From positions 1-64,000 of the forward strand of contig JAUIGR010000001.1 in assembly GCA_030430025.1 (NCBI GenBank): a stretch of DNA of 64,000 nt. Reading direction: 5' to 3'. The DNA is from Gammaproteobacteria bacterium. Lineage in GTDB: Bacteria; Pseudomonadota; Gammaproteobacteria; Xanthomonadales; Marinicellaceae. Of the stretch, positions 3-33,545 are shown one piece after another (within the stretch, counting starts at the first letter, position 1; every line of letters begins with the position of its first letter). Under the pieces are notes generated by a model. The model was not told where the DNA came from, searched no databases, and saw only the letters and a program-made list of their open reading frames with translations. A program made the position numbers and the translations under genes.

Positions 3-1310
3 CATCAACATATAGCAGACCTTGGTGGTGTGATATATGTTGATGCAGGCAACAACGGAGGTACTGAAGTTTTTATTGGTGGTTCAAGGATGTATCAAAA
101 CAGGGCTAATAACGGTGTTCTGGCGTATGTAAATGGTAGCAATAACAATGTTACCAGTTTAGAACTTGAATCAGTGCAGATTGACAGGAATGGTCTGGAT
201 GGGAATGATGATTACGTTGATTTAATTATGTTTTATATGAATGGTGTTGACCCATTTTATAATGGTCTTTTATTAGAGAGGGTCACCATTGCTGATAATG
301 ACGTACAGGGAGTGGTTTTTAATTTATTCTCACATGTTAGCATTAAATCAAGCATTATTAAGGATGATGGTAGTGTTGTTTATAGCGAATTTGTACAGGG
401 TACAAAGCAATTTGACTGTGTTTTATCACATGAGATTGCTTCTTTGGTTAATGCGACCAGGACTGTAGAAACTAATGATCCTGGGTTTGTTGATGGGTCG
501 AATGCGGATTATCATTTGGTGCCGGGAGCTTTGGCTCAAGATTATTGTGATGGTTCTGTACAGACCAGTTTAATGGACATTGATGGTGAGAATTGGGGCT
601 TTGATGATCCTGATCAAATGGATGTTTATGGTCCTTTTGATGTGGGTGTTGATGAAATCAAGTTAGATACACCTGCACAAGCTTATGCTGATTTATATCA
701 GGTATTAGAAGATTCAGGTTCTACTGTATTTGATGTTCTTGCTAATGACATTGATATTGATGGTGATTTGTTTGTTGTTGAATCGATTGACTTGCTTCCA
801 GAGCATGGTGTAGTCGTATTGGTTGATGGTCTTCCCAGTTACACTCCTGCAGCGGATTTTTGTGGTGTTGATGGTTTTGATTATGTGATTACTGGTGGTG
901 ATGTTGCTACAGTGACTGTTAATGTGACGTGTGTCAATGATCAACCTGCTTTTACTTTAGTTGAGTCTTTAAAAGTTTCATTGGATGAGATTAATGGTTA
1001 TTCGCAGGTTGTTGCTTGTGGTTTTGATATGGGTCCTGATGATGAGGATATTGGTCAATCATTGATGGCTTTTGAAGTTGAGGTGATTGAGGACATTGAC
1101 GGCATATTTAATGATGTTTTTATTGATGCTCAAGGTCATCTGATTCCTGCCTTTTCGGGACAGCCAGGAGTGGCTGTGCTTTCTGTTGTGATGCGTGACG
1201 ATGGAGGTATTGAGAATGATGGTGTTGATACTTCTGCTGCGCATCAATTGCAAGTATCAGTTAGCGATTATTTGTTTGCTAATGGTTTTGATACCATGGG
1301 TTGTCAATAA
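3..1310 (+). CDS. Exported beta-helix / choice-of-anchor Q protein with Ig-like domain (5' partial)
   Basis: The frame is open back to the window edge, so the N-terminus, including any signal peptide, lies outside. The first part is Asn/Gly-rich with short repeating turns typical of right-handed parallel beta-helix proteins. It is followed by a choice-of-anchor Q type segment (DYHLVPG, then DYC, then GPFDVGVDE) like that in the genes at 1871 and 2860. After this comes a cadherin-like/tandem-95 type Ig domain, recognisable by VLANDIDIDGD and a later CGVDGFDYVI. The protein ends in LFANGFDTMGCQ, a variant of a tail shared with other proteins in this window. It is probably a secreted or surface-attached structural or adhesive protein; substrate unknown. 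Two hairpins follow the stop codon. The family call is firm; the function is inference. Confidence 0.8.
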   Translation, partial: HQHIADLGGVIYVDAGNNGGTEVFIGGSRMYQNRANNGVLAYVNGSNNNVTSLELESVQIDRNGLDGNDDYVDLIMFYMNGVDPFYNGLLLERVTIADNDVQGVVFNLFSHVSIKSSIIKDDGSVVYSEFVQGTKQFDCVLSHEIASLVNATRTVETNDPGFVDGSNADYHLVPGALAQDYCDGSVQTSLMDIDGENWGFDDPDQMDVYGPFDVGVDEIKLDTPAQAYADLYQVLEDSGSTVFDVLANDIDIDGDLFVVESIDLLPEHGVVVLVDGLPSYTPAADFCGVDGFDYVITGGDVATVTVNVTCVNDQPAFTLVESLKVSLDEINGYSQVVACGFDMGPDDEDIGQSLMAFEVEVIEDIDGIFNDVFIDAQGHLIPAFSGQPGVAVLSVVMRDDGGIENDGVDTSAAHQLQVSVSDYLFANGFDTMGCQ

Positions 1311-1418: not shown

Positions 1419-1870
1419 TTAGTGGTTGACAACCATAATATTGGACTATAGTTTTGCCAATCAGGATTCAGTGGTTATGATTCATTTGTCTGTTATCACT
1501 TTGTTGATATTGAGCTAGTTTTTTAAATGGATGTTTATTTGCGTATGTAGTAGATAAGTTGGGATGGAATCATTTTATTTTTGTTATCAATCCTGAATTT
1601 GGAGATAGTCATATTTTGATTAACTCATTTTTAGTGAACTATTGTGAGTTGCTTTATTTTGTCAGGTCTCAGACTTTGACAATGATAAGGGAGGAGTAAA
1701 TCATCTTGAGATGAAGTAGATATTTGATCTCTTATGGTTTGCACTGTTTTGCAATATGGTGTCCGTGAAATGCGGACTATTTTTTTAAATGATGTTTTTG
1801 CTGATTAACTTGATCACAACAAATGACGGTGAATTTATGGTTATTCAGTAAGGAAATATGGAGAAGGTGT
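1419..1870. other. 450-bp gene-free stretch with an orphan terminator-like hairpin
   Basis: No convincing coding frame is seen on either strand. The only structure noted is GTCCG (1761-1765) pairing with CGGAC (1773-1777) followed by TA and seven T residues, which resembles a small intrinsic terminator with no gene just upstream. The rest is AT-rich and presumably holds the promoter of the following exported protein. Confidence 0.5.
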
Positions 1871-2626
1871 GTGAAATTATTGAATATGATGTTTTGTTTT
1901 CTTTTGTTGTTTTTTGGAACCACGCTGATGGGTCAGGAGGTATCAGACGCTCCTCACACAGAGTGGTTAAGTTTATTAAATGATGTCACTGTCATGAAAC
2001 AGATCGATGGTGCCGTTGTCGGACAGGGGGTGTTATGTGATTATAACTCTATTCAAGCTGCCATTGATTCAGGAGCTACAAAAGTATTAGTCACTAATAC
2101 TGGGTCACCTTATCTTGAGAATATTGAGTTTGAATCTCGTGATATCGCGATAGAAGGCGGATATGATAATTGCTTGACTGCGAAAGAGGGAAAATTAGGC
2201 ACTGAAAAGTCAGTCATAGATGGCAGCGCGTTGAGCGCTGTGATTTCTGTGGTAGGACAGGATCCGGCTGAAGATGTGGTCATGAGTTTCAACAATTTGG
2301 TCTTGAGAAATGGTAATGCCGTAAATGGTGGAGGGTTATCATTCGGTGCTGATGTTTATGGCATGGCGCAACTAGACAATATGATTATCGAAAATAACCT
2401 CGCCAATATCAGTGGTGGTGGTGTTTTGGTTGGAGACCCAGGTTTTGTTAAACCAGAGAATTTTGATTTTCATCTGACTTCTGGTTCCCCAGCTATTGAT
2501 TATTGTGACAATTGGCTTGTCACTCCTCAATATTTGGATTTTGATGGCAGTATCAGGGGAGTCGATTATATTCCTAAAGCCAATCTATATGGCCCTTATG
2601 ATCTTGGGTTTGATGAGTTTTTCTAA
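1871..2626 (+). CDS. Short exported choice-of-anchor Q family protein
   Basis: I chose the GTG at 1871 because GGAGAAGG lies 8 bases upstream and it gives a proper signal peptide (KLLNMMFCFLLLFFGTTLMG); an ATG at 1823 has no ribosome binding site. The mature part has the N-terminal module of the family (CDYNSIQAAIDSG, later GGYDNC). A single beta-helix-like stretch (NGGGLSFG, SGGGVLV) runs straight into the C-terminal module (GDPGF, SGSPAIDYC, GPYDLGFDEFF). At about 250 residues it is less than half the length of its neighbour at 2860. It also lacks the short acidic/aromatic tail seen in the paralogs. It could be an internally deleted paralog or a compact functional version. Function unknown, presumably cell surface. 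Confidence 0.75.
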   Translation: MKLLNMMFCFLLLFFGTTLMGQEVSDAPHTEWLSLLNDVTVMKQIDGAVVGQGVLCDYNSIQAAIDSGATKVLVTNTGSPYLENIEFESRDIAIEGGYDNCLTAKEGKLGTEKSVIDGSALSAVISVVGQDPAEDVVMSFNNLVLRNGNAVNGGGLSFGADVYGMAQLDNMIIENNLANISGGGVLVGDPGFVKPENFDFHLTSGSPAIDYCDNWLVTPQYLDFDGSIRGVDYIPKANLYGPYDLGFDEFF

Positions 2627-2859: not shown

Positions 2860-4566
2860 ATGAAAATTTATGTTAGTTTAATCTTGTTAGTAGTGTTTCA
2901 AATAGCTGCTGCGGGATCTATTGTGACAGTCGGTGCCGATGCAGATATAGGGTGTGACTATCACAGTATTCAGAGTGCAATTAATGATGTCAATGCCAGT
3001 GAAATTAGAGTAGCAAATAATAAAACTTATACGGAAAATCTCAGCATTGTGGGTGGCAATAAAAAAATTCTTGGTGGTTTTGGTAATTGTACGGAGGCCG
3101 TCCTAGGGATTAGTAATTTATCTCAAGCATTGGTTACAGGGAATGGTGCTGTTCCTGTTGTAAATGTCAACGTGGGTACACCTGGTGTACACAATATAGA
3201 GTTGAAAAGACTGAGAGTTGGCAATGGTACCGATGGTGTAAGTATTGTTGCTCAGAATGGTGCTGAATTGAGTGTGCTGGTTAGTGGTTTACAAATGTTT
3301 AATAATAGCCAAAATGGTCTGAATGTTTTGAGTAATACCAACGGATTAGCAGATGTGATATTGAACGATGTGACTGTTAATTTCAATAATGACAGTGGTG
3401 TTGACTGTTCCGGATCTAATACAAATGTCAGAGTGGCTGGTGAATCAGAGATCAGTGACAATGATGCCCCGTCTGGTGGCGGTATGTTTGTGCATGATGG
3501 CTGTACAATGAATGTGTATTCACCAGTCCAAATAAAGAATAATTCGGCAAATACTTCCGGTGGTGGTGTGAATGTGTCAAATGCAATATTCAATGCCATT
3601 GGCGTCTATGCATATTGTGAAAATGGTATTTGTTTTGGTGATGACTCTGAGCCGGTTGTTATCAGCGGTAATGATGGTGATGCAGATGATAACCTTAATG
3701 GTAGCGGTGGTGCGATTATAGCCAGTGGGCAGAGTACTGAGGTTACAATGAATAATACAAGAATAACAAACAATCATGCTTTTATTGGCGGTGGTATGTA
3801 TGTTGTTGGAGGAGCCAAGTTATCTTTGGCTGGTTACGAGGAACCTGTACAAAGTTGTTGGAATCCTAGTGCTTGTGTAGAGATAAAAAACAATACAGCG
3901 AACACAGGTGGTGGTTTTTATGCTGCTGGTGCAAATTCTGAGATTACTATTCATGCGGCCCATTTTACAAATAATCGCAGTAATAATGGTGCTGCGGGTG
4001 TTGTTTCTGGTGAAGCAACAGCTTTAGTGTCGGCATCTGTTGTGTATGGTAATGGATTGCTTAATGACGCTGTATACAGCAATAATTCGCTTTTCCGCTT
4101 ATCTGGGGGAATTGATTTTTCTCCAGGATTAACGTTGAATGCGGTAAGTATTGCAGATAATCATTTGACAGGTGTGGTGTTCAATAATAATCGTGGTGAT
4201 CTTGATGTCAGCAGTTCAATTGTTTTTGATACGCATAATGTGTATCAGGAGACAGGAAATAATGCTACACAGCAATTTGAATGTGTCATAGCACATGAAA
4301 AAACCAGCTTTTTGGGAGATGGTACGGTTTCCGTTGTTAATCCCTTAAATACTCCTGTATTTATTAATCCTCAGCAAGGAGATTATCATTTGGTATTCAA
4401 TTCTCCTGCTATTGATTATTGTCATAAAACTGAGAATGAAGTACTTACCGATATTGATTATGATCAACGAGGGATTGATGATCCTGATAATGTCGACCTT
4501 TTTGGTTTATATGATATTGGTGCTGATGAGTTTAATGACCTCATTTTTAGAGATGATTTTGAGTAA
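2860..4566 (+). CDS. Exported parallel beta-helix, choice-of-anchor Q protein
   Basis: The 568-residue product starts with a clear signal peptide (MKIYVSLILLVVFQIAAAG), and an AAAAGGTGA sequence precedes the ATG. An N-terminal module (CDYHSIQSAIND, then GGFGNC) is followed by a long Asn/Gly/Ser-rich beta-helix region. Repeated turns such as SGGGMFV, SGGGVNV, IGGGMYV and TGGGFYA mark it. The C-terminal choice-of-anchor Q module carries NSPAIDYC, RGIDDPDNVDLFG and YDIGADE, and the chain ends in LIFRDDFE. Such proteins are secreted or surface-exposed; some beta-helices bind or cut polysaccharide, but no catalytic site is recognisable here. It is a paralog of the genes at 3, 1871 and 30391. Confidence 0.82.
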   Translation: MKIYVSLILLVVFQIAAAGSIVTVGADADIGCDYHSIQSAINDVNASEIRVANNKTYTENLSIVGGNKKILGGFGNCTEAVLGISNLSQALVTGNGAVPVVNVNVGTPGVHNIELKRLRVGNGTDGVSIVAQNGAELSVLVSGLQMFNNSQNGLNVLSNTNGLADVILNDVTVNFNNDSGVDCSGSNTNVRVAGESEISDNDAPSGGGMFVHDGCTMNVYSPVQIKNNSANTSGGGVNVSNAIFNAIGVYAYCENGICFGDDSEPVVISGNDGDADDNLNGSGGAIIASGQSTEVTMNNTRITNNHAFIGGGMYVVGGAKLSLAGYEEPVQSCWNPSACVEIKNNTANTGGGFYAAGANSEITIHAAHFTNNRSNNGAAGVVSGEATALVSASVVYGNGLLNDAVYSNNSLFRLSGGIDFSPGLTLNAVSIADNHLTGVVFNNNRGDLDVSSSIVFDTHNVYQETGNNATQQFECVIAHEKTSFLGDGTVSVVNPLNTPVFINPQQGDYHLVFNSPAIDYCHKTENEVLTDIDYDQRGIDDPDNVDLFGLYDIGADEFNDLIFRDDFE

Positions 4567-4621: not shown

Positions 4622-7156
4622 TCAAATGAGGATGTTTTGCGCAGGTTTTCTTAAGTTGTAGTGAGAAGACATGCTGGTGCCGTAAGCGCCAGTGTTGGCT
4701 ATTAACAAGACATCCCCTACTTCGGTTTTAGGCATTTTTCGATCTATACCAAGAATATCGCCAGTTTCACACATAGGACCAACGATGTTGGCGGTGTACT
4801 GTTTCGGCTGTTCTGATCGCGTCAGATTGACGATGTTGTGCCAGGCACCATAAAGGGCTGGTCGGATCAGAGAATTCATTCCAGTTTCGATGCCAATATA
4901 ACCTTGTTGACCTTTCCATTTTGTTTGTGTCACGTGGGCCAAAAGTACCCCTGAGTTGGCAACAATAAAACGTCCCGGTTCTATCCAGATAGTTGTTCCG
5001 GGGTGTGCCGTTTTAAATGCAGTGAGTTGTTGGTCTAGCGCGTCAAAATCCATACCTACATCCCCTGGATTTTCTTTGATTCCGAGGCCACCTCCAATAT
5101 TCAGTATATGAGCCTCTGGAAACCAATGTCGTTGTTGTTGTAGAACTTGAGCAACCTTTTGCCAGTTGTTATGGTCAAGTATGCCACTGCCTGAGTGGGC
5201 ATGAAGTCCAATGACCTTGATTGCTCTATTGCGACAGATTTTTGCTACTTCAGATAATTTTTCAGCGGGAATTCCGAATTTTGACTGTTCTCCAGCAGTA
5301 CGGACATAGCGATGATGTCCACTACCATGGCCCGGATCAATACGTAAAATCACAGCTTTATGCTCAAATACATCAGCCCATTGCTCCAGTACCATCGGGT
5401 TGTCAATAGTGGTTAAAATGTTTTTTTCTGCTGCCCATTGATACTCCGATTTGGGTGCAAAATTGGGTGTAAAAATGATTTTCGATGAGGCGTCTTTACC
5501 CACTACTTTTTCAATACGCTGTATTTCTTCAGGTGAAACCGTTTCGAAGTGGATGTCTTGTTGGTTGATTAAATCTAAGATTGATTGAGTGCTATTGGCT
5601 TTGCAGGCGTAATGAATTTGGTCTATTGAATTCAGTGCTTTGAGCTGGTTGATTTGTTGGATGATGGTTTCACTATCATAGACATAGCAGGGAGCTTTGG
5701 TAGTGGCCAGTTGAAGCAGTTGTGATTTTTTTTTCTGCCACCAGGGTTTGATTGTCTTTTGGTTTGACTGTTTTTGTTGGTGAAGTTGGTGCCAACTGGG
5801 ACCAAAATGGGGTTGACTGTCATCATTAGGTATTAAAATTTCATGTAAAGCACGGGTGAGCTTATCAGCTTGGTCCTCATCAACAACGAATGTTTGGTTT
5901 AAATCATTTGACGATTGTGTGGTGATGTAAATTCGTTGGTCAGCAAATGTTGAGACGACTGAAGCGATTTTGTCCGATAATGCCCTGATACGATAACCTA
6001 CTAGGGTGACGGCAGAACAGTTTTTTATGATGCTCACTTCTCCTAAGTATGATAGTTCTTTTTTGAGTTGTTCTAAGACAGTCTCAGACAGCACATTATC
6101 AGATCTATCAAGTGATAACGTGACATTAGTTTGGGCTGTGGAAATTAAGTCGACACTCAGGCCCAATCGTTTAAATACATTGAACATATCTCCTAAAAAA
6201 CCAGCCTGATGCCACATGTTAATGGATTCTAGTGATATCAGAGTGACTTGATGACGGGTGTTGATAGCATAAACTGAAGGTTTTGTTGGCTGATAATCTT
6301 GTGACAGTACGGTTCCTTGTTCATCAGGTTGATCAATATTTTTGATTGCTAGAGTAATGTTGGCTTGTTCTACGGGTAAAATACAGCGGGGATGAAGTAC
6401 CGCACCACCACTTGCAGCAATTTCTCGGGCTTCTTGATATCCTAGCTGAAGGATCAGTCGAGCATTGGGAATCGCTTTGGGATTGGCACTGAATATCCCG
6501 TGGACATCAGTCCATATTTCCAGGCATTCTGCATGTAGTAGTACTGACATATAGGCGGCAGATGTATCTGAGCCGCCACGGCCTAGTATGACTGTTTTTC
6601 CATGGACATCACGTGCCACAAATCCAGGCATGATGTAGCAGCCATTTGTTAAAACATTGGACAAATCATCATTCTCATTTAACTGGCATTGGGCTGAGAG
6701 AATTTGACTGCGCTGATTTCTTGAGTCATTAGTTTTAGCCGTCAATATGGTTTGAGGATCGAATTTGTGTATTGATATGTGTTTTTGTAAATGTGCGTAA
6801 CAAATGTCATTGGTACACCATTCACCCAATGACAATATATGTGCTTGATCATAATCTGACTTACTAGTTAATGTTGCTAATTGCTTCAGTTCTTGCCAAT
6901 GGCTGGAGCAAACTGAGAAATCGACAGATAAGGTCGTTGCCATTTCTCGGAGCCTGTTTTCAATGAATGTCAGCGCTTCAGGTTGATTGTTAATGACATT
7001 TTCGATGGCGTTGGTGATGCCACTAAAAGCAGAATGTACCAACATTATATTTTTATTTTCTGCAAGTTTTTCTTTGAGCAGTGAGGTTATTTGCCTCCAT
7101 TGTTTTTGACCTGAAACTGATGTGCCGCCAAATTTAATTACCGTCCACGGATTCAT
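4622..7156 (-). CDS. Bifunctional aspartate kinase / diaminopimelate decarboxylase (LysC-LysA fusion)
   Basis: This 844-residue protein joins the first enzyme of the aspartate family pathway (phosphorylation of aspartate) to the last step of lysine synthesis (decarboxylation of meso-diaminopimelate, PLP-dependent). The kinase half opens with KFGGTS (residues 8-13) and carries GRGGSDTSA near 192-200. ACT regulatory segments fill about 305-445. The decarboxylase half starts near 475, with YACKAN giving the PLP lysine (K519), HSGSGI, GGGLG, EPGRF and the MCETGD motif near the end. I start at the ATG at 7156 because AAGGTGA lies about 6 bases upstream; a TTG two codons earlier is less likely. Fusions of this kind are known from Xanthomonas relatives. 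It stands alone, divergent from the Lon-like gene. The ACT region suggests feedback control by lysine or threonine, which the sequence does not settle. Confidence 0.93.
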   Translation of the reverse strand: MNPWTVIKFGGTSVSGQKQWRQITSLLKEKLAENKNIMLVHSAFSGITNAIENVINNQPEALTFIENRLREMATTLSVDFSVCSSHWQELKQLATLTSKSDYDQAHILSLGEWCTNDICYAHLQKHISIHKFDPQTILTAKTNDSRNQRSQILSAQCQLNENDDLSNVLTNGCYIMPGFVARDVHGKTVILGRGGSDTSAAYMSVLLHAECLEIWTDVHGIFSANPKAIPNARLILQLGYQEAREIAASGGAVLHPRCILPVEQANITLAIKNIDQPDEQGTVLSQDYQPTKPSVYAINTRHQVTLISLESINMWHQAGFLGDMFNVFKRLGLSVDLISTAQTNVTLSLDRSDNVLSETVLEQLKKELSYLGEVSIIKNCSAVTLVGYRIRALSDKIASVVSTFADQRIYITTQSSNDLNQTFVVDEDQADKLTRALHEILIPNDDSQPHFGPSWHQLHQQKQSNQKTIKPWWQKKKSQLLQLATTKAPCYVYDSETIIQQINQLKALNSIDQIHYACKANSTQSILDLINQQDIHFETVSPEEIQRIEKVVGKDASSKIIFTPNFAPKSEYQWAAEKNILTTIDNPMVLEQWADVFEHKAVILRIDPGHGSGHHRYVRTAGEQSKFGIPAEKLSEVAKICRNRAIKVIGLHAHSGSGILDHNNWQKVAQVLQQQRHWFPEAHILNIGGGLGIKENPGDVGMDFDALDQQLTAFKTAHPGTTIWIEPGRFIVANSGVLLAHVTQTKWKGQQGYIGIETGMNSLIRPALYGAWHNIVNLTRSEQPKQYTANIVGPMCETGDILGIDRKMPKTEVGDVLLIANTGAYGTSMSSHYNLRKPAQNILI

Positions 7157-7264
7157 GATCAATCACCTTTTCAAAGAAAAATGCAAACTTTAGATAATTT
7201 TTTTTTTGGGCGCAAGCATAATCGTTTAATATGCATCGATGATGCATGACTAGATAGAGAACAA

Positions 7265-30390: not shown

Positions 30391-32073
30391 TCAATTGTTG
30401 TTAAAACCATCCATAAAGATTAAATCATTGTCCCATCGATATTCATCTGCACCTGCGTCATTATGAGTATTTAATCCATTATCGACAACATTAGGGTCGT
30501 CATATCCGCGATTTTCGAGGTCGATATCGTAACCAGTATTGATGAGTGCTATACCTTCACAGAAATCGACAGCGGGTGATGTAGGCTTGATATGGTAGTT
30601 ATTATCGTCTGGATTAATAAAATCAGCATCATCAATGATAACACCAGAAGGGAGGCTGCCAAATGATTGAGCCTCGCTAATTATTGAACACTCGATATTG
30701 AATGATAAAGAGTTACCACCATTGCTGGCAGTCAAGCCGCCTTTGGGGTTTTGTATGATACTTGATTGCACAAAAATCAGTCCATCGCCACCTGTGTTTA
30801 ATTGAGTCAGTATAGATTCATTATCTGCAATGGTGACGTCTCGTAAGTCTAATATTCCGCCGGTACCAGTTTCTAAAACATAAGTGGCCTGATTGTTACC
30901 ATTCTTTATCATGATACTGCCTTCGATATTGGCATAAGCATCATTTTGTACAACACCTAAAGCGCCAAATCTGGCATTATTACCTTGCATATAGGCATGG
31001 GCCAAATAAATAGAGGCTTGATCATCTACAAAGAATCCTGCGCCGTTGCCGACCAAACTAGGGTCTGGTGAGGTATTGCCAATGATTTGGACACAGCGAC
31101 CTATAGTCAAGCAGAGGTTAGCAGGTATATTGACAGCATTGGCTGTTAACACGGCTTGATCAGTGACTGCCATAGCGGCGCCTCTAGGAGCTTCGTTATT
31201 CAAAAGCTTGACATTAGGTGCATTGACTATTGTTCCCCCATTTGTTGCATAGATTCCCCCTCCTGAGTTGTTTTGGTTGTTATCATCAGTTGTATTAGAC
31301 TGGATTAAAGTGCCATTTAAATTCACATGAGCTGCACTTGCGGCATAAACGCCCCCACCGTTCAACATGGCATCGTTAAATTCAATGGTAACCGAAGAAT
31401 CGGCATTGACCTCGCAACTGTTAAGAACAGAAATCCCACCACCAGAACTGAGTGAATCGTTGTAGGCGAATCTGCTGTTGTTATTGATGTTTACTATGTT
31501 CTGACTGCCTGTACACAACAATCCCGACCTTTGGTTTAAAACCACGTTAACGTTTTGCAAATTAACCAGTTGGTTGCCGCCTGACAGTGATAGGCCCCTT
31601 TCTTTGTGATTGCCGATGTAAACATTGTTCAATGTTAAATCAACCCAACTGGCTGACAAAATCCCCGAAGCCTGGCCATTTCTGATGATCAGGTGCCTCA
31701 GTTCCACGGTTTTTTGTTGACTATTACCAGCAATAGAGATCATGGGTTGAAGCTGTTGGCTGTTGACTCCTTCTATGATTGCTCTCGAACCATTACCAAT
31801 GCCAAGACCGGCTGCCGTGCAGTTTTCATAGCCACCCCTGATGATGAGGTTTTGGGTATTGCCATCATTGATGACAATATGTTCTTCATAGATTTTATCA
31901 CTGGCGACACGGATCTCATCACTGTTACTTAAATTAATGGCATCAGTAAGGCTGGTATAAGAGCAAGCATTGGCATTATTACCGACCGTAACGACCGAGC
32001 CGAGGATTTGATCTGAGTTTGCATGTGCCAGCACCACTACGAGTAGCGTTAAAATTGTGACATAACTTTTCAT
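30391..32073 (-). CDS. Exported parallel beta-helix, choice-of-anchor Q protein
   Basis: The 560-residue protein has a signal peptide (MKSYVTILTLLVVVLAHANS). It shares the family N-module CSYTSLTDAIN and GGYENCTAAGLGIG with the paralog at 2860. The Asn/Gly-rich helix region has turns such as SGGGISV, NGGGVYA and SGGGIYA. The C-module includes TSPAVDFC, RGYDDPNVVD and DAGADEY. It ends DLIFMDGFNNN, the shared tail with three extra Asn. It is likely a secreted or surface protein of unknown ligand. A short element-end hairpin lies in the divergent promoter region it shares with the propeller gene. Confidence 0.82.
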   Translation of the reverse strand: MKSYVTILTLLVVVLAHANSDQILGSVVTVGNNANACSYTSLTDAINLSNSDEIRVASDKIYEEHIVINDGNTQNLIIRGGYENCTAAGLGIGNGSRAIIEGVNSQQLQPMISIAGNSQQKTVELRHLIIRNGQASGILSASWVDLTLNNVYIGNHKERGLSLSGGNQLVNLQNVNVVLNQRSGLLCTGSQNIVNINNNSRFAYNDSLSSGGGISVLNSCEVNADSSVTIEFNDAMLNGGGVYAASAAHVNLNGTLIQSNTTDDNNQNNSGGGIYATNGGTIVNAPNVKLLNNEAPRGAAMAVTDQAVLTANAVNIPANLCLTIGRCVQIIGNTSPDPSLVGNGAGFFVDDQASIYLAHAYMQGNNARFGALGVVQNDAYANIEGSIMIKNGNNQATYVLETGTGGILDLRDVTIADNESILTQLNTGGDGLIFVQSSIIQNPKGGLTASNGGNSLSFNIECSIISEAQSFGSLPSGVIIDDADFINPDDNNYHIKPTSPAVDFCEGIALINTGYDIDLENRGYDDPNVVDNGLNTHNDAGADEYRWDNDLIFMDGFNNN

Positions 32074-32216: not shown

Positions 32217-32306
32217 AAATAATCCTTAGGCAATAACTTTTGATTTTCTGTGTTATTACCAAGCTTTACCTTATAATAATGAATGATTGAGAGGGTGAGG
32301 TGGATC

Positions 32307-33545
32307 ATGAAAATATTTTCGGTGTTATTGTTTTTTGCATTAAATACGGCTATTGCTCAAGTGGACCAAGTGGCTCAGGTGATTGATTCTAGCGGTGACT
32401 TGACTCATACTTTAGATGGTGCTGGTGTTGGTAGTGATGGCGCTGGGAATATTTATGTTACCGGGACTAACACTGATAATCTATTCAAAATCAGTTCATC
32501 CACAACCTGTTCTGTAAGTGCAGGAAATTGCCAAGTAGTGGAAATTCTTGATGCTACAGGTGATGGTATGCGTATTCATGATAGATCATCAGCAGTCACA
32601 ACGGACAGCAGTGGCCATGTCTATGTCTCGGGTCAATTTAGTGATAATGTCTGGCGTATTAACGCACCTAATAACTGTAGTACGGATGGCCCTTTATGTG
32701 ATATTTTTGAGATTATCGACACTTCCGGTGATGGTATTCATCTATTAGATACACCTGTTGCTGTGGCGGTTGATCATGATGACAATGTCTATGTGGCAGG
32801 TGCTGGTTCTGATAATGTTTTTCGAATTGGGTCTTCAACCACGTGTAGTACAGGAGGTATACCAGGTTGTATCATTACGGAAATTATTGATGCGACCGGT
32901 GATGGAAGTCATGCACTTGATCAGCCAGTGGGATTAGCTGTTGACAGTGAGGGCAGTGTTTATGTCACAACTCAGAATTCTGATAATGTGTTCAAAATTT
33001 CCACTCCTGGTGATTGTAATACAACCAACAATGATTGTGTGGTCAACCAAATCATTGATGAAAGCACATTAACTGATCAAGCATTTGGTCGTGGTATCGC
33101 AGTGGACAGCGACGATAATGTTTATATGACATCACTCGGTTTTTTTCAGCCAGCCAGTATTTATAAAATCGCTACACCAGGTAACTGTAGTACTGACGGT
33201 GTACCTTGTATTATCACCAAAATATTTGAACAGGACACTCCTCAACAAGCAGGGAATATGGCTGTTGACGATGCAGATAATATTTATTTTGTTGGAGGCA
33301 ATGGTGAGAATGCTTTTCGTATTGATAAGCCCATTAACTGCAGTACCACAACTACTCCTTGTATTATCACGGAGATTATTGGTGCTGACGGTGATGGTAA
33401 TGGTGCCGTTTTAGATGGTCCAGGAACAATTGTGGTTGCCAATGATGTTGATGTCTATGTTGGCGGTGGTGGCAGTGATAATGTTTTTCGCATTTCGGGG
33501 GCAGCTGAATCGTTGGATCTGATATTCAGAAATGGGTTAGAGTAA
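32307..33545 (+). CDS. Exported seven-bladed beta-propeller (NHL/SBBP-like) protein
   Basis: The ATG at 32307 follows GGTGAGGTGG and opens a signal peptide (MKIFSVLLFFALNTAIA). The 412-residue product consists of seven repeats of about 55 residues centred on (V/I)AVDxxDNVYV-x-G and SDNVFRI. Blade lines begin near GSDGAGNIYVTG, TDSSGHVYVSG, VDHDDNVYVAG, VDSEGSVYVTT, VDSDDNVYMTS, VDDADNIYFVG and VANDVDVYVGG. Between blades there are six CST-x-x-x-PC-like Cys pairs, probably disulfide loops. The C-terminus LIFRNGLE matches the tail of the beta-helix proteins. The function is likely binding at the cell surface; no active site is visible. A TATAAT lies at 32272 without a clear -35. Confidence 0.82.
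   Translation: MKIFSVLLFFALNTAIAQVDQVAQVIDSSGDLTHTLDGAGVGSDGAGNIYVTGTNTDNLFKISSSTTCSVSAGNCQVVEILDATGDGMRIHDRSSAVTTDSSGHVYVSGQFSDNVWRINAPNNCSTDGPLCDIFEIIDTSGDGIHLLDTPVAVAVDHDDNVYVAGAGSDNVFRIGSSTTCSTGGIPGCIITEIIDATGDGSHALDQPVGLAVDSEGSVYVTTQNSDNVFKISTPGDCNTTNNDCVVNQIIDESTLTDQAFGRGIAVDSDDNVYMTSLGFFQPASIYKIATPGNCSTDGVPCIITKIFEQDTPQQAGNMAVDDADNIYFVGGNGENAFRIDKPINCSTTTTPCIITEIIGADGDGNGAVLDGPGTIVVANDVDVYVGGGGSDNVFRISGAAESLDLIFRNGLE

Follow-up and report, generated by a model that had tools for sequence, protein, structure and literature searches.

A short C-terminal peptide on unrelated exported proteins of a Marinicella genome: a probable sorting tag that co-occurs with one type of type II secretion system

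Related peptides at the ends of four proteins

The window, as we call the whole stretch of DNA analysed, spans 64,000 nucleotides and belongs to contig C107 in an assembly of 3.08 Mb from the genus Marinicella. The genes of interest and their tails, the latter read from the sequence, are the following.

3 to 1310, plus strand: tagged Big_9/cadherin-domain protein (Pfam Big_9, E 1.3e-13), its 5' end lost at the contig start
1266 to 1310, plus strand: variant tail DYLFANGFDTMGCQ-stop
1823 to 2626, plus strand: untagged exported paralogue that stops at the domain boundary, a natural tail-less comparison
2860 to 4566, plus strand: tagged beta-helix-like exported protein, 568 aa (fold name from the earlier note, and repeat pattern)
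4537 to 4566, plus strand: tail DLIFRDDFE-stop
30391 to 32073, minus strand: beta-helix-like exported protein with a variant tag, 560 aa (Pfam Beta_helix, E 0.0076, below cut-off)
30391 to 30426, minus strand: variant tail DLIFMDGFNNN-stop
32283 to 33545, plus strand: exported SBBP beta-propeller protein, 420 aa (Pfam SBBP, E 2e-15; signal-peptide-like start)
33516 to 33545, plus strand: tail DLIFRNGLE-stop of the propeller

An earlier note on this DNA had described related ends on four exported proteins. All four are present, although the end at 1310 had been quoted without its last five residues, with which it reads LFANGFDTMGCQ. The propeller ends ...LDLIFRNGLE-stop and the 568-aa protein, for which a Pfam search returned no match, ends ...NDLIFRDDFE-stop; the minus-strand gene with its stop at 30391 ends ...NDLIFMDGFNNN-stop and the gene stopping at 1310 ends ...SDYLFANGFDTMGCQ-stop. 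The same note had remarked that the short paralogue lacks the tail, which is the case: this protein ends ...YDLGFDEFF-stop and its tagged paralogue reads ...YDIGADEF followed by NDLIFRDDFE, so that the tail is an addition beyond the end of the domain. Equally, neither the protein ends inspected by eye nor a position table of 65 short tails contained the hydrophobic helix or basic cluster whose absence had been pointed out. Adjacent to these genes, the minus-strand frame at 4622-7162 has, by sequence, the look of an aspartokinase fused to a diaminopimelate decarboxylase.

The tail is enriched and C-terminal

The pattern [IL]F-x-[DN]-x-[FL]-E-stop gave 28 matches in the window's genome and its reversed version gave none; one of the 28 (C49) lies in no gene and another (C38) in a frameshifted gene that had not been called. 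We then used an own-genome sample of 744 kb, made of the window and 40 stretches, most of them picked to hold matches, with 642 called open reading frames (ORFs). The strict tail ended 26 of the 642, a figure that, given this selection of stretches, is not a density, and a mean of 0.003 remained after shuffling the last 30 residues. With a relaxed pattern the corresponding figures were 39 ORFs and a shuffle mean of 1.2. The enrichment against shuffled C-termini that the earlier note had suggested looking for is thus found, and it is not due to chance.

The position of the motif is equally constrained. Only three copies occurred inside proteins in the 219,576 residues of the sampled ORFs, and in 1,657 kb selected without regard to tails the core motif lay 0-5 residues from the C-terminus in 17 of 18 instances (ORFs of at least 120 aa), three of the 17 coming from the window itself. 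Within the own-genome sample, the 341 kb not picked for tails, the window included, held 320 ORFs, 108 signal-like starts and seven tails, two of these on ORFs that are 5'-truncated or frameshifted; scaling the seven tails would give about 60 per genome. Among 65 short tails of the order, most of them at loci picked by the FE-stop pattern, an aspartate stands two residues before IF in 54, and the linker ahead of it is variable.

Four tagged genes appeared to be frameshifted (L033:4408-4908, L036 at C38:2640-2663, L046:9773-10504 and L067:3711-5447), their upstream part being readable in another frame. These frameshifts may reflect assembly error, decay or on/off switching.

Carriers are exported and belong to unrelated domain families

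A signal-peptide-like start was detected by script in 20 of the 26 called strict-tail ORFs, and one more (L053) was added by eye. The five others comprise two ORFs cut at contig ends, two frameshifted ones and one partial copy. All 21 intact strict carriers therefore have the Sec or Tat signal peptide that substrates of a type II secretion system (T2SS) need, as judged by our own heuristic and, for one, by eye. The same script found a signal-like start in 202 of the 616 other sampled ORFs; it admits alternative starts and counts membrane helices as signal peptides too. A motif equally common on cytoplasmic proteins, which had been named beforehand as an outcome that would speak against a tag, is not what the sampled ORFs display.

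The minus-strand protein at L038:1967-3736 is tagged and has, by eye, a lipoprotein-type signal (LSGC). Judging from its sequence, this protein seems to combine the tail with a lipid anchor, and with such a start it does not depend on the tail for attachment to the membrane.

Carriers were then examined for known domains, the window proteins giving the SBBP propeller and Big_9. Two further Pfam scans covered 20 tagged proteins with strict or variant tails, six of which had no match. The domains found were Cadherin with M10, GSDH, Peptidase_S8, Big_5 with endonuclease/exonuclease, nidogen-like, Cleaved_Adhesin, Golvesin_C with Amidase_3, Peptidase_S8 with a P-domain, Beta_helix and P_proprotein. 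L059 is the sole carrier in which Beta_helix passed its cut-off; in L032 it fell short, and BNR likewise stayed below its own. The tails thus follow domains of nine or more unrelated types and are independent of the domain that precedes them, which argues against their simple descent with one shared C-terminal domain, the other outcome that had been set against a tag.

For the propeller, a search of 41 relatives recovered full-length orthologues in six other genomes, all of the genus Marinicella and 43-64% identical, and three more genomes gave weak partial matches only. DLIF was kept in all six orthologues and was followed by degenerate ends, namely RNGFDF, YDGF, YNGFD, EDGFE, EDGFE and EDDFE. 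AlphaFold2, run on the propeller alignment, folded the propeller (pTM 0.82, mean pLDDT 78.7) and gave residues 410-420 a pLDDT below 50; the tail is accordingly predicted by the model to be disordered and to lie outside the fold.

A sorting, secretion or anchoring tag, as the earlier note had proposed, is supported by the enrichment of the tail, by the export of its carriers and by their unrelated domains. The size of the tag, its spread in the order, a long form in Acidobacteriota and the link to a T2SS, all described below, go beyond what the window alone shows.

Within its class, the short form is confined to one order

The FE-stop form was found in 36 of 41 genomes, made up of the window's own genome and relatives (2 matches for the reversed control). 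The single match in G018, counted among the 36, is not tail-like, and the pattern without the stop gave no tail match in this genome. In a sample of 199 Lysobacterales genomes the form was present in 57 (control, 4 matches), with 7-39 copies in those of the genus Marinicella, and matches without the stop requirement extended to 77 genomes. Elsewhere in the class a slightly narrower pattern gave one match each in 10 of 277 genomes and the control gave 8 matches in 7 genomes; outside the order, the short tail is at background level within the class. In the scan of a named genome collection described below, the Lysobacterales records among the matches listed, Dokdonella and Aquimonas included, had the short or a slightly extended form.

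The stop does not always follow the motif directly. In several genomes most matches were not followed by a stop, for instance in G091, which had 30 matches when no stop was required and 5, under a slightly different pattern, when one was. A free C-terminal carboxylate, the classic ligand of PDZ domains, is disfavoured as the recognised feature: tails in stretches not picked for them end 0-5 residues after the glutamate, and since many extend a few residues past FE, strict recognition of the carboxylate is unlikely.

Exposed hydrophobic C-terminal peptides are, in general, typical ligands of periplasmic PDZ proteases, and the tail could in principle mark its carriers for degradation or quality control by such a protease. 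The carriers, however, include kinds of enzyme that are usually extracellular (subtilases, an amidase), and periplasmic PDZ proteases are nearly universal whereas the tail is restricted to a clade. We regard a degradation tag as very improbable.

A longer form in Acidobacteriota and internal copies of the motif

A scan of a named genome collection yielded at least 106 stretches; its pattern was biased to GC-rich codons and its listing is a lower bound, so that it is no census. Among the matches listed, a long form, IFxDGFESGDTSAWSxTVP-stop, was seen in many records of Acidobacteriota, Acidobacteria or Thermoanaerobaculia and in one Deltaproteobacteria genome. Of 95 C-terminal copies among these matches, 49 stop exactly 12 residues after the glutamate, and all of these 49 ends have W14; 45 have the final P, 44 have G9 and 41 have S15, and the search pattern had fixed no residue of this set. 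Nine of the 95 listed tails stop seven residues after the glutamate, usually at the conserved tryptophan (...DGFESGDTTAW-stop), and are five residues shorter than the long form (e.g. L161, L170, L189, L197, L203, L209 and L213).

In genomes found by way of these loci, copies of the motif at any position reach 129 per genome (G488, 10.2 Mb; control 1). Internal copies were found at the start of a CBM_4_9 domain in L231 and of a Polysacc_lyase domain in L228. A DGFE motif also stands shortly past the signal peptide, near the mature N-terminus, in L163, L182, L228 and L231. On account of the copies at the starts of jelly-roll domains, the tail resembles a first jelly-roll strand.

This resemblance raises the question of whether the tail is a structural or evolutionary residue, that is, the first strand of a jelly roll (F-x-D-G-F-E-S-G-x-x-x-W) left over or serving as a cap, with no role in sorting. 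The internal copies at the two domain starts, and the motif right after the signal peptide in L163 and L182, would fit such an origin. The propeller tail nevertheless lies outside the fold in the model, the tails stand on many unrelated domain types, the long form has a fixed end among the matches listed, the copy numbers are high, and debris is not expected to track a T2SS as described below. A mere residue is, in our judgement, improbable.

GspD passed the family cut-off in one of seven long-form genomes tested, and the link to the T2SS is for this reason confined to the short form so far.

Tail-bearing genomes largely share one type of T2SS

The partner families compared were GspD of the T2SS and rhombosortase; the co-distribution described below emerged once the T2SS had been taken up as a candidate, and genes of other families may co-distribute with the tail as well. 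Rhombosortase was rejected as the partner, since it exceeded its cut-off in no more than 5 of 80 genomes, the window's own not among them; there the best match to TIGR03902 reached 47.6 bits against a cut-off of 84. The GspD profile (TIGR02517) matched in 79 of 80 genomes, in 71 of them over the cut-off, irrespective of tails, and the presence of a T2SS as such, whatever its type, was rejected as the partner on this ground.

Tail-bearing genomes nevertheless seemed to hold a second GspD of another kind, and several types of GspD could be told apart. BLAST against 20 fetched regions gave 41-77% identity for type A, 22-30% for type B and 32% for a third type, from a genome (g16) which we take to be Xanthomonas-like; the GspC of type A was matched only in type-A regions. 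Another GspD type occurs in genomes of the order both with and without the tail peptide, and only type A separates tail-bearing from tail-free genomes. The window's own genome has the canonical T2SS that T2SS substrates require: a type-A operon at L034 encodes GspC, D, E and F and lies about 6 kb or less from two tagged genes.

Type A was found in 66 of the 199 Lysobacterales genomes, no full-length score falling between 387 and 277 bits; four fragmentary hits (G005, G010, G101 and G116, 52-81% identical), all in tail-positive genomes, were counted as present. A genome was called tail-positive with at least three tail matches, this threshold and the split between types A and B having been set after the data were seen; 49 of the 66 genomes with type A were positive versus 4 of the 133 without. 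The resulting table (type A and tail / type A only / tail only / neither) is 49 / 17 / 4 / 129, with a Fisher p of 4e-27 that is uncorrected for kinship. Counted by genus it becomes 22 / 5 / 1 / 40 (4e-12), and permuting genera within families gave p = 1e-5, the lowest value that 100,000 permutations allow. For the FE-stop form by itself the table was 44 / 22 / 1 / 132, and with the fragmentary hits counted as absent 45 / 17 / 8 / 129. Within family f2, at least three tail matches were present only in the two type-A genomes (30 and 21), two others having one each. A secretion gene that co-occurs with the tail across genomes, another check proposed in the earlier note, is hence provided by the type-A T2SS, which co-distributes with it over the 199 genomes.

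G018, a member of the window's own family with a 4.7 Mb assembly in 2 contigs rated 100% complete, had no GspD match at all, in line with its lack of tail-like matches.

Clustering of tagged genes with the type-A operon was considered and is weak: 46 type-A regions contained 13 tagged ORFs, of which 12 were from Marinicella and one from another family. In 27 type-B regions there was a single motif match, not tail-like. The tagged gene next to the own-genome operon, L034:10882-12504, has a partial copy of its C-terminal part elsewhere in the genome, at L039:5779-6303, with nearly the same end.

The GspC of type A passed the Pfam cut-off for T2SSC in five of five proteins and for PDZ in four of five. 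Compared with solved structures, it matched OutC, PulC and other GspC chains among others, the best single match being the PDZ domain of a zinc metalloprotease. Its AlphaFold model was of low confidence (pTM 0.31) and was set aside.

Exceptions to the co-distribution

Of the 17 genomes with type A and few tails, 12 belong to one genus (f9 g12). When the G position of the motif was left free, 11 of these 12 had 8-50 matches (controls, 0-3), and the twelfth, G089 (1.8 Mb), had one; the same pattern gave 0-5 matches in 24 type-A-negative, tail-poor genomes. Of seven g12 loci that were read, five have IFxDRFE at the protein end, prolonged by a few residues (M, AP, LLNSQF, QD or P); at the other two (L291, L293) the match is far from any C-terminus. 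Among the remaining type-A genomes, G020 has a tail IFEDSFE at L266; of the four matches in G040, one was read (L276) and is internal to a longer frame; and G080, G165 and G192 are without convincing tails.

The four type-A-negative genomes with 3-5 tail matches (G064, G068, G072 and G092) all belong to family f8. Locus L280 of G092 has the appearance of a genuine tail, which the loci read in G064 and G068 lack. Rhombosortase was over its cut-off in two of them, G064 and G092. Tail genomes of f8 without type A, and type-A genomes without tails, are real counter-evidence to a strict rule.

Discussion

The best reading of these data is that the tail is a sorting tag, and it is one without an earlier description in the literature searched: motif strings of the tail retrieved no description from the open-access papers searched, one string alone giving matches, in papers that by their titles are unrelated to bacterial proteins. 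An NCBIfam scan of five whole proteins and ten 45-aa tail ends likewise returned no sorting-signal model, with the proviso that HMMER filters may miss very short signals. We consider it fairly likely that [D]-[LIV]-I-F-x-[DN]-[G/D/R]-F-E, standing no more than five residues from the C-terminus, acts as a sorting tag and that the type-A T2SS reads it. As tail-bearing genomes are largely those with one T2SS type, the peptide may be an address label for that system.

A carrier would cross the inner membrane by Sec, in keeping with the signal peptide seen in its sequence, and would fold in the periplasm, the tail presumably remaining outside the fold as a flexible, aromatic and acidic peptide, as predicted for the propeller. 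The canonical T2SS, whose GspC has T2SSC (HR) and PDZ domains, would then recognise the tail and carry the tagged protein through the secretin in the outer membrane, so that it reaches the cell surface or the medium. The data show the tag, its restriction to exported proteins, its independence of the domain and its co-distribution with the type-A T2SS; that this T2SS reads the tail, and through which subunit, is inferred, co-distribution being no proof of contact. The PDZ domain of GspC is a candidate reader, those of EpsC and OutC being involved in the selection of some T2SS substrates (PMC12369372); the N-domains of GspD are another candidate.

Alternatively, the tail could serve for anchoring or retention by docking on a partner at the surface or in the matrix. 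The T2SS would then only supply the proteins, and the co-distribution would reflect life style or a co-inherited module. Adhesin-like domains on several carriers fit this idea, a Choice_anch_Q-like sequence stands shortly ahead of one tail (E 0.03, below cut-off), and the spread of the tail within one order suits an order-specific receptor. GlyGly-CTERM in Vibrio offers a precedent, being linked to membrane association with export by another signal (PMC13393428). Yet L038, with its lipoprotein-type start, would need no anchor and rhombosortase has the sparse distribution given above; that no receptor or processing enzyme was found in the families searched (GspD and rhombosortase) counts slightly against it. 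Anchoring or retention is, in our estimate, an unlikely role, though the most serious of those weighed against sorting.

If the sorting tag is compared with known systems, GlyGly-CTERM/rhombosortase (presumably model TIGR03501) is similar in placing a C-terminal tag on several unrelated exported proteins. Unlike it, the tails have no Gly-Gly motif, transmembrane helix or basic cluster, as judged by eye and from the table of 65 tails. GlyGly-CTERM has been tied to T2SS substrates in Vibrio (PMC13393428). PEP-CTERM/exosortase resembles the tail as a short C-terminal homology domain, reportedly of sporadic spread (PMC1569441), and differs from it by a PEP motif, a transmembrane helix and a basic cluster, none of which was seen by eye in the tails; the LPXTG motif, helix and basic tail of sortase substrates are likewise lacking by eye. 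In Bacteroidota, the C-terminal domains (CTDs) of type IX secretion are non-membrane signals on folded, Sec-exported proteins and are folded domains of some 70-100 residues. The present tail is, in contrast, a peptide of 9-19 residues, a length that speaks against a domain of this type, and the NCBIfam hits of the ends included no such model.

Also close are the composite signals of T2SS substrates. Flexible loops or small beta domains direct Pel3/PelI and VesB, the latter with its Ig fold, to T2SSs with a GspC-PDZ, as set out in PMC7949064 and PMC12369372, and the C-terminal tail too may direct substrates to such a system. Those signals are nevertheless structural and substrate-specific, whereas the tail is one linear peptide on dozens of unrelated proteins. 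PMC12369372 describes the T2SS as lacking a linear universal signal, PMC7949064 calls substrate recruitment elusive, and both hold to the prevailing view that the signal is structural rather than linear and universal. A linear T2SS signal would therefore be new in kind, C-terminal sorting tags as such being already known.

Canonical T2SSs are widespread in Gammaproteobacteria and the tail is confined to one order, so that the tail is no general T2SS signal. It is conceivable, if somewhat doubtful, that it is a linear and transplantable C-terminal signal, one peptide sending dozens of proteins to one of the cell's two T2SSs and the longer Acidobacteriota version acting likewise. Such a signal may have its origin in the first jelly-roll strand, or may imitate it, and the T2SS would then be reading an exposed beta strand.

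The selection of substrates by T2SSs is an unsolved problem, and here a linear peptide co-occurs with one T2SS type. If the tail is the signal, recognition by the T2SS would be testable by simple grafts, cargo could be predicted across many genomes from their sequence, and numerous hypothetical proteins in Lysobacterales and Acidobacteriota would gain a predicted location.
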